DNA from: Cardiobacteriaceae bacterium TAE3-ERU3
GTDB taxonomy: Bacteria > Pseudomonadota > Gammaproteobacteria > Cardiobacteriales > Cardiobacteriaceae
DNA length: 64,000 bases
Assembly: GCA_019218315.1 (NCBI GenBank)
Contig: JAHUUI010000004.1
Span: 1-64,000, forward strand
Direction: 5' to 3'
Below the pieces are notes generated by a model that was not told where the DNA came from, searched no databases, and worked only from the letters and a program-made list of their open reading frames with translations. Numbering within the stretch: the stretch's first letter is position 1; every line of letters begins with the position of its first letter. Below, one piece after another: positions 10,343-15,064 of the stretch. A program made the translations under genes and the position numbers.

Positions 10343-11116
10343 ATGTTCAAGATTATTACATTTAATGCCAATGGCATTCGCGCTGCAGAGCGGAAAGGCT
10401 TTTTTGATTGGCTTGCCACGCAAGACGCAGATGCCGTCTGTATCCAAGAAACCAAAGCCCAACAAAGCCAACTTGACGGCAATCCTGCTTTTTTCCCACT
10501 CGCACACAACTACTATCACGACGCTGTCAAAAAAGGCTACAGCGGTACTGCATTGTACCTCAAGCACAAGCCCGATGAAGTCATTAAAGGCATTGGCTGG
10601 CCGGAAATTGACGAAGAAGGCCGCTATATTGAAGCGCGCTATGGTGACTTGCACATTATTTCCCTATATATGCATTCTGGGACCAGCGGCGATCATCGTC
10701 AGGTCAAAAAAGAGGCATTCATGGAAAAATTTATGCCATACCTACGTGAACGTGCGCAACGCGGTGACCGTATTATTTTGTGCGGCGACATCAACATTGC
10801 CCATACCGAGCGTGACATCAAAAACTGGAAAGGTAACCTAAAAAATTCCGGCTTTTTACCACACGAGCGTGCATGGCTGACGACTTTGTTTGCCAGCGGC
10901 TTTAAAGATGCCTTCCGCCTGGTCAATGATGAAGATCATCAATACACGTGGTGGTCACAACGCGGGCAAGCACGTGCCAACAATGTCGGATGGCGGATTG
11001 ACTATCACATCATCAGCGACAACCTCGCCCCAATGGTGCAAAGCGCAGAAATCTATACTGCTGAACGCCTATCCGACCACGCACCACTCATCCTGACCTA
11101 CGACGATCTACTGTGA
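10343..11116 (+). CDS. xthA: Exodeoxyribonuclease III
   Basis: The main AP endonuclease and 3' repair exonuclease of base excision repair. The 257-residue protein has the exonuclease/endonuclease/phosphatase fold with FNANGIRAA at the N terminus, the metal-binding glutamate in CIQETKAQ, GDINIAHTERDIKNW, the tail motif WRIDYHI and the catalytic SDHAPL. Length is close to E. coli Xth (268). dsbB begins 8 bp after the stop, so the two probably share a transcript. Confidence 0.95.
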   Translation: MFKIITFNANGIRAAERKGFFDWLATQDADAVCIQETKAQQSQLDGNPAFFPLAHNYYHDAVKKGYSGTALYLKHKPDEVIKGIGWPEIDEEGRYIEARYGDLHIISLYMHSGTSGDHRQVKKEAFMEKFMPYLRERAQRGDRIILCGDINIAHTERDIKNWKGNLKNSGFLPHERAWLTTLFASGFKDAFRLVNDEDHQYTWWSQRGQARANNVGWRIDYHIISDNLAPMVQSAEIYTAERLSDHAPLILTYDDLL

Positions 11117-11124
11117 GGCACACC

Positions 11125-11637
11125 ATGACACCAACCTACCGTAAACAACGCACCGTTTTATTGATTACTGGCATCATCTGCTGGTTAATGATTGCCTTTG
11201 CCTACTTCTATCTTGAGAAAACCCTGTATCTGAACCCATGCCCACTGTGCATGATGCAGCGCCTCGCCTTTGCCATTATTGGCACCGTCTTTATCATCAA
11301 TGCGCTATGGTACCCAACCGACGGGATCAAATTGGTCGTCATGAAGATCCTTAAATACCTCAGTATCTTTTTTGGTATTGGCTTGGCCGCGCGACACATT
11401 TATATCCAGAATCTGCCCGAGGGTAGCATAGGCTCATGTGGCCTGGATTTTTACGGCGTTATGTCGCAAAACTCATTCTTTTCCGGCCTGTGGCAATCCA
11501 TGCAAGGTACTGGCGATTGCGCTACCCGCGATCTATTCATGGGGCTAACCATTCCAACATGGTCAATGGGGTTATTCATCGTGGTACTGTTTGTCTCTAT
11601 ATTTACAGATCCAAAACCAAGCAAATACAACGACTGA
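11125..11637 (+). CDS. dsbB: Disulfide bond formation protein B
   Basis: An inner-membrane quinone reductase that reoxidises periplasmic DsbA. The 170-residue protein has four predicted membrane helices, the first cysteine pair in CPLCMMQR and the second pair in a periplasmic loop (Cys of GSCGLD and Cys of GDCATRD). The ATG at 11125 is preferred over the in-frame GTG at 11113 because GAGG lies at 11115-11118. No dsbA is nearby. A terminator at 11664-11693 closes the xthA-dsbB unit. Confidence 0.93.
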   Translation: MTPTYRKQRTVLLITGIICWLMIAFAYFYLEKTLYLNPCPLCMMQRLAFAIIGTVFIINALWYPTDGIKLVVMKILKYLSIFFGIGLAARHIYIQNLPEGSIGSCGLDFYGVMSQNSFFSGLWQSMQGTGDCATRDLFMGLTIPTWSMGLFIVVLFVSIFTDPKPSKYND

Positions 11638-14559: not shown

Positions 14560-14850
14560 AGGATACTCCTTATATTAAGCACAAAATATGACACAAAGCA
14601 TAGCAGCGCACGGCTTTCTCACCAAGCCCATCCAGATCAACTTTATGACTTGCCATGCATCACAATCATAAAAATGATCACAACCAATGCACCAATAACT
14701 ATAAGATTTCTTACCCTTGGTTAATGTTATCAACTTTGCTGCGATGCAGCATTTTATAATCCTATTCAAATTAATTATTAAGGTATTGTTTTTTATAAAC
14801 TTGAACACGATTATTATTTTTTACATTCTATACTTCCGTTTTATTTAACA
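14560..14850. other. AT-rich gene-free stretch upstream of the 2-hydroxyacid dehydrogenase
   Basis: Very AT-rich, holding the promoter region of the minus-strand dehydrogenase unit and the upstream flank of the candidate sRNA promoter. A short GCTGC...GCAGC hairpin near 14740-14752 lacks a proper T-run. A Cys-rich open frame on the minus strand (14575-14808) has no ribosome site and overlaps this control region. Confidence 0.5.
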
Positions 14851-14853
14851 GCA

Positions 14854-14882
14854 TTGACGCAATGCAGCATAAAGCATATAAT
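14854..14882 (+). promoter_or_regulatory. Strong sigma-70 promoter of the candidate sRNA
   Basis: TTGACG (14854-14859), exactly 17 bp of spacer, and TATAAT (14877-14882): one base away from the full consensus. The flanks are AT-rich upstream and CCCCG follows the -10 box. There is no coding sequence downstream before a strong terminator 54 bp later, so it appears to drive a short non-coding RNA. Confidence 0.85.
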
Positions 14883-14887
14883 TAGCC

Positions 14888-14965
14888 CCGACATCATCGA
14901 TGTTATCTCCTCTATATCCTCCTTTGGTGGTTGTTGGCCGAGTTTTAGAACTCGGCCTTTTTTTT
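14888..14965 (+). ncRNA. Candidate small RNA with two anti-Shine-Dalgarno motifs
   Basis: About 78 nt from the predicted start (near 14888) to the T-run. Seen in sequence: a 5' hairpin ACATC-ATC-GATGT (14891-14903), an unstructured CU-rich single-stranded segment with ATCTCCTCT and ATCCTCCTTT, then a 9-bp GC-rich terminator stem with TTAG loop and eight T. CCTCCTT is the same sequence as the anti-Shine-Dalgarno tail of 16S rRNA. The layout of hairpin, CU-rich seed and Rho-independent terminator matches Hfq-type trans-acting sRNAs that block ribosome sites. No known family was recognised. The minus strand of the same segment looks like a ribosome site for an 18-codon frame, which is the rival explanation. 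Confidence 0.65.
14936..14965 (+). terminator. Rho-independent terminator of the candidate sRNA
   Basis: Stem GGCCGAGTT (14936-14944) and AACTCGGCC (14949-14957), loop TTAG, followed by eight T (14958-14965). The T-run is on the plus strand only apart from a short A stretch, so it terminates rightward transcription. Confidence 0.92.
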
Positions 14966-15037: not shown

Positions 15038-15064
15038 AAAAAAACGGCGCCACAAAAGGCGCCG
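15038..15064 (-). terminator. Terminator of trpS
   Basis: Stem CGGCGCC (15045-15051) with GGCGCCG (15058-15064) and, on the minus strand, seven T (complement of 15038-15044). It lies 22 bp past the trpS stop codon. Confidence 0.9.

Follow-up and report, generated by a model that had tools for sequence, protein, structure and literature searches.

A conserved gene for a predicted small RNA with two anti-Shine-Dalgarno motifs in the Cardiobacteriales

The window analysed here, a stretch of 64,000 nt from Cardiobacteriaceae bacterium TAE3-ERU3, contains on its plus strand, with trpS and a D-2-hydroxyacid dehydrogenase gene as neighbours, a compact element that begins with a sigma-70-type promoter. 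This promoter consists of TTGACG (14854-14859) and TATAAT (14877-14882), separated by 17 nt, and matches the consensus at 11 of 12 positions. It is followed by a G+C-rich discriminator segment (14883-14889) and by a predicted small RNA (sRNA) of about 76 nt (14890-14965), which has a putative start site and is supported by the promoter/terminator geometry, the RNA fold and the conserved unit. The 5' end of this transcript would form a stem-loop, SL1 (GACAUC-AUC-GAUGUU, 14890-14904), which appears both in the minimum free energy structure and in RNAalifold predictions. Next comes a CU-rich middle, in which ATCTCCTCT (14905-14913) and ATCCTCCTTT (14916-14925) can be read, and which is largely covered by the core TCTCCTCTATATCCTCCTTTGGTGGTT (14906-14932), with 26 of its 27 positions invariant in Cardiobacteriales. 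The core carries a first anti-Shine-Dalgarno (anti-SD) motif, UCUCCUC (14906-14912), which ensemble folding predicts to be accessible in the window RNA; a second one, UCCUCCUUU (14917-14925), near-invariant class-wide and located within or beside the loop of a second stem-loop, SL2; and a GGUGGUU clamp (14926-14932), able to pair with either motif and thus to generate two SL2 folds. The element ends at an intrinsic terminator, SL3 (14936-14965), with a 9-bp stem (14936-14957) and a U8 tail encoded by eight T (14958-14965).

The initial annotation had described a near-consensus promoter, two anti-SD motifs in a CU-rich middle and a U8 terminator at this place, and all of them are indeed there. 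It had also equated one motif with the 16S rRNA anti-SD tail. The 3' end of the organism's own 16S rRNA was looked for in the genome stretches examined and was not found, and the agreement of the sRNA motif with it is presumed from the conserved CCUCCU tail of 16S rRNA. The GGUGGUU segment could itself form seven pairs, two of them G-U, with GAUCACC, located at the 16S 3' end beside the anti-SD. In the surroundings of the element, ATGCAGCAT is present twice, upstream (14740-14775), near a TATAAT-like TTTTATAAT (~14744), and within the sRNA promoter (~14864); this repeat may reflect a promoter duplication or mark a site for a regulator. Downstream, a further bidirectional terminator hairpin, CGGCGCC...GGCGCCG (15045-15064), presumably ends trpS from the opposite strand.

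Taken singly, the consensus matches are at chance level, with 5 promoter-like sites against 7.1 expected and 6 terminator-like sites against 4.3 expected, so that no single motif goes beyond chance. It is conservation, and not these motifs, that lifts the status of the element to that of a gene. A 121-bp unit was found in all 12 genomes searched of the family of the window (Cardiobacteriaceae) and in 17 of the 18 searched of a second family of the order; across the order, 29 of 32 genomes retain the gene as one clear copy. Matches obtained by blastn have E values of 1e-20 to 1e-32 in the 11 other Cardiobacteriaceae genomes (11/11) and of 1e-8 to 1e-14 in the second family; by pattern scan, the carriers include Cardiobacterium hominis, C. 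valvarum, Dichelobacter nodosus, Rappaport israeli, Ignatzschineria and Wohlfahrtiimonas. A fortuitous meeting of sequences resembling a promoter, a CU-rich stretch and a terminator, each of which would by itself be expected by chance, can be rejected, since the whole is conserved across two families and beyond.

The way in which the unit is conserved is also informative. The promoter is kept in the 24 loci of relatives examined (9-12 of 12 consensus matches, spacing 16-17), the terminator is maintained in relatives despite a differing stem sequence, and the flanks of the unit do not align between relatives. The core reads TCTCCTC[T/C]ATATCCTCCTTTGGTGGTT, its only variable position being T or C at position 8, as counted on the 23-sequence alignments A1 and A2 (23 distinct sequences). 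Neighbouring genes differ between genera, being trpS, fumarase-like, SerA-like or fabI, and, because of this, the sRNA is considered to act in trans and not on a neighbour, and cis-regulation of a flanking gene was ruled out. No second copy exists in the genome of the window, where weak RF02278 matches at other places correspond to different RNAs. A kept promoter, a near-invariant core, rebuilt stems and varying neighbours are, at the level of comparative sequence, the marks of an sRNA gene that is autonomous and acts in trans, and this conservation identifies the locus as a real conserved RNA gene. The features of the dual anti-SD kind of sRNA (own promoter, intrinsic terminator, non-coding character, conserved seed and variable context) are all present. 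As for the discriminator, it is G+C-rich (at least five of eight positions) in 11 of 12 family loci, the exception being G001 (AAAAATCG), of the same genus and the closest relative, and it is not G+C-rich in the second family; this gives a weak hint of stringent or growth-rate control, as for NmsRA.

The initial annotation had seen no coding frame between promoter and terminator, and no credible one is present, the open reading frames of both strands being mechanical and that of the minus strand lacking conservation. It had also offered, as an alternative, an 18-residue peptide encoded on the minus strand, with two SD-like motifs. In the family of the window, GGAGG...GGAGA does precede an ATGATG, and an MM start is found in 12 of 12 loci. 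However, the putative product may have as few as 11 residues or as many as 50 or more, the frame is broken by 1-nt indels in four members (L016, L017, L018 and L019), and the second family has no ATG at the site. Moreover, the residues that are shared can be accounted for by the plus-strand promoter and SL1. Taking into account that conservation does not track the peptide, this alternative is discarded.

The predicted fold of the transcript has an energy of -22.7 kcal/mol (z -3.9; none of 200 shuffles as good), an advantage that is due mostly to the terminator, and places a CU-rich core with little structure between the 5' stem-loop and the terminator. RNAalifold consensus folds were made for each family separately, because the joint alignment A2 fails at the terminator, which is misregistered by MAFFT. 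In the second family, the stem of SL1 is rebuilt by compensatory changes, with pairs 3, 4, 5, 7 and 8 switching type among G-C, A-U and C-G. This stem is 100% paired, compared with 89% when the 3' arms are shuffled, and 100% was reached in 1.2% of the shuffles. Terminator stems likewise vary from genus to genus by compensatory change. Thus, the layout of a plus-strand trans-acting sRNA of 75-80 nt, put forward earlier from a single sequence, gains from the comparison with relatives a covarying structure and a near-invariant seed.

Pairing of GGUGGUU with the first anti-SD motif exposes the second one in a loop, as in NmsR, whereas in the alternative fold it is the second motif that is paired. 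The window RNA would slightly prefer this alternative (-2.9 kcal/mol, against -1.9 kcal/mol for the form with the first motif paired), and the second family prefers the loop-exposing fold. Ensemble prediction leaves both motifs of the window RNA largely unpaired, with most of their letters at least half-accessible. Outliers at class level keep SL2 with other letters, for instance ACCAUC/GAUGGU in L039, and these pairs, read by eye, support the loop-exposing form.

The element also has relatives outside Cardiobacteriales. With R1, a sequence model of the core, matches at E <= 1e-3 are obtained in 73 of the 369 genomes sampled from the class, here GTDB Gammaproteobacteria, with the former Betaproteobacteria included. 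In a phylum-wide sample, only 6 of 398 genomes match at E <= 1e-4, all of them in GTDB Gammaproteobacteria. Carriers outside the order include Chromatiales, Thioalkalivibrio, Thiogranum, Thiohalobacter, Plasticicumulans and Thiotrichaceae. A second model, R2, trained on the family of the window only, recovers the 28 class-level loci tested (28/28; E 9e-9 to 0.06) and the four tested from the second family (4/4), and gave no match on 22 background loci of the window's genome. The Plasticicumulans locus, which reaches 51.9 bits with this model, retains SL1 (ACAUCC-AAU-GGAUGU), and the anti-SD core is near-invariant across the class. In most loci outside Cardiobacteriales, the element precedes rplM-rpsI by 140-460 bp in the same orientation, and several loci are near coq7. 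In the loci read, the element has its own promoter-like sequence upstream; a terminator separates it from rplM, and further promoter-like motifs, seen by eye, lie between the two. No such element is found upstream of rplM in the genome of the window, the Cardiobacteriales gene not adjoining rplM. Some members of the class, G099 and G332, carry three to five copies, and the spacing between some of these is about 150-280 bp, an arrangement that recalls the tandem siblings of NmsR.

With regard to possible partners, Hfq is encoded in the genome of the window (PF17209, E 1e-29). In a target scan covering most of this single genome, ribosome sites matching the anti-SD were very numerous, in keeping with the nature of such a motif, and the real core pairs at -14 kcal/mol with the ribosome-binding sites of 249 genes, compared with 177 +/- 26 for 40 scrambled-tail controls; since the maximum among these controls is 246, the excess is modest. 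The top long-duplex predictions included a periplasmic binding protein, RbsD, an SSF symporter, a nucleoside-gate protein, CydB and HemB. Three were checked across genomes and none offered a convincing conserved target site: the gene of the periplasmic binding protein, the best-scoring candidate, was found in none of the 11 other genomes at E 1e-20, the site predicted in hemB is not conserved in relatives, and that of cydB is conserved only partly and is confounded by the end of an overlapping upstream gene. Exact extended matches (AAGGAGGATAT and similar) were absent from the ribosome sites of this genome. Outside the window, the same genome contains two sibling candidate sRNAs, G000:C1:477762-477814 (+) and G000:C5:75208-75260 (-), each considered together with about 90 bp upstream. 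They have a promoter region with Fur-box-like GTTATCATTA/GCATTATCATTA, a common body GCGAAAGCAATCTGTCACATTGCCTCATGATGATTT and a terminator, and no Rfam family named them; their TGTCACATTGC resembles the RyhB/PrrF-type seed.

On the whole, it is quite probable that the locus specifies a single-copy trans-acting sRNA of about 76 nt, probably Hfq-assisted, which blocks the ribosome sites of several mRNAs. By analogy with related RNAs, we infer its expression, its dependence on Hfq, the blocking of ribosome sites and the class of its targets. Thus, the gene would be transcribed independently from its own promoter, and the conserved core of the transcript would expose two anti-SD copies, which could base-pair with the purine-rich ribosome-binding sites of several mRNAs. 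Hfq, bound at the U8 tail, would probably help in this process, and translation start would be blocked and the mRNA destabilised, in a mode like that of NmsR/NgncR_162-163, S17 and bdhR1. Metabolic and nutrient-uptake genes are the probable targets.

Two other roles have to be weighed against this sRNA acting on a set of mRNAs. The RNA might be a general brake on translation, mimicking the 3' tail of 16S rRNA, so that its level sets the competition for ribosome sites, and tied to ribosome supply through its location at rplM-rpsI. The near-invariance of the anti-SD core across the class, the fact that most loci outside Cardiobacteriales precede rplM-rpsI, the abundance of anti-SD-matching ribosome sites in the genome and the growth inhibition reported in E. 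coli upon overexpression of RF02278 RNAs (PMC5688073) agree with such a role. Nevertheless, E. coli grew almost normally when S17 was overexpressed (PMC11722255), the mRNAs regulated by NmsR and S17 form defined sets, and in Cardiobacteriales the gene is not beside rplM, making a general brake unlikely. Less probable still is that the element was, in its ancestral setting, a leader or attenuator of rplM-rpsI, with the sRNA as a by-product. The orientation, the upstream position and the intervening terminator would fit an attenuator, but the promoter-like motifs lying between that terminator and rplM in the loci read by eye argue against it, as does the free-standing condition of the gene, with its own near-consensus promoter, in the order of the window.

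Returning to the autonomous sRNA, its origin can be approached tentatively. It is possible, though we would not regard it as the probable outcome, that an ancient sRNA gene at the side of rplM-rpsI, widespread in GTDB Gammaproteobacteria but missing from Rfam, was relocated in Cardiobacteriales and gave rise there to the window RNA. The anti-SD output of this gene would couple the supply of ribosomal proteins to the repression of strong-SD mRNAs, and NmsR, RF02278 and S17 would be branches of the same family. Nothing relevant on sRNAs of Cardiobacteriales or upstream of rplM was found in the literature searched. The dual anti-SD sRNAs of Neisseria, Burkholderia and Bordetella have so far been regarded as unconnected peculiarities, and the promoter-driven, near-invariant version of Cardiobacteriales and of Chromatiales/Thioalkalivibrio-type bacteria is covered by no Rfam family at gathering score. 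If the proposed function holds, several global metabolic regulators would have one testable origin and a common core, and in Cardiobacterium, Dichelobacter, Ignatzschineria and Wohlfahrtiimonas the gene would be a candidate for a main metabolic sRNA.

The claim of the initial annotation that no known family fits is correct at Rfam gathering thresholds, which neither the window RNA nor the class-level loci tested reach, but below them a kinship with NmsR, RF02278/bdhR1 and S17 is evident. Among Rfam families, RF02278 comes closest (35.7 bits, E 1.6e-5, gathering score 50); its cut-off is passed by none of 96 relatives, the best class-level one obtaining 48.5 bits. With NmsRb (RF02877), whose gathering score is 52, the window RNA obtains 23.9 bits. 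SorX, SorY and mmgR (RF02784, RF02651 and RF00519), from Alphaproteobacteria, score 20-24 bits, well under their thresholds, and their resemblance is limited to a CU/C-rich anti-SD-like motif and a terminator.

The Neisseria sRNAs NmsRA/NmsRB, also named RcoF or NgncR_162/163, have in common with the window RNA SL1, a CU-rich strand with the first anti-SD, SL2 with the second and the terminator. In NmsR, the first motif is located between SL1 and SL2 and the second in the SL2 loop, and mutation of either abolishes the repression of all tested targets except GltA, both motifs being needed for most of its TCA-cycle targets (PMC5362039). NmsR represses TCA-cycle and related mRNAs and is controlled by RelA. 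NgncR_162/163 govern amino-acid uptake and central metabolism (PMC9973317). The window RNA likewise has three stem-loops, with the first anti-SD between SL1 and SL2 and the second in SL2; the NmsRb core, UCUCCUCUAU..CUCCUUU in the Rfam alignment, is nearly identical to its own, and NmsRA and most Cardiobacteriaceae loci are alike in their G+C-rich discriminator. By contrast, the NmsR genes are tandem siblings between dsbB and lrp and their SL2 clamp is GUAGA, whereas the window sRNA is single-copy, lies elsewhere and has GGUGGUU. A dsbB gene is present in the window (11113-11637), 3.2 kb from the sRNA; this nearness is probably a coincidence, since neighbours vary in relatives.

The RF02278 toxic sRNAs of Burkholderia (bdhR1, ncS03, ncS05, ncS27 and ncS62) are described as growth-attenuating double-hairpin RNAs (PMC5688073). 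They share with the window RNA the single strand UCUCCUCC and a U-tailed terminator, and in them the loop of the first hairpin exposes a second anti-SD (CCUCC). The window RNA has both motifs, but its SL2 is weak, shorter and mismatched, with two alternative folds, of which the second family prefers the loop-exposing one; it carries SL1 as an extra 5' hairpin and exists in one copy, compared with three to five in Burkholderia. S17/S17S of Bordetella pertussis has a fully conserved 27-nt dual-site core beside coq7, and represses transporters and regulators through the two anti-SD sites (PMC11722255). RNase E releases S17 from a 190-nt precursor, whereas in the window the promoter lies directly at SL1, and the source paper describes S17 only for Betaproteobacteria (PMC11722255). 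The coq7 vicinity that S17 shares with class-level loci suggests, without proving it, a common descent. Thus, judged from its sequence, the window RNA is a clear relative of the dual anti-SD sRNAs NmsR, RF02278/bdhR1 and S17, and belongs to a gammaproteobacterial branch unlisted in Rfam.
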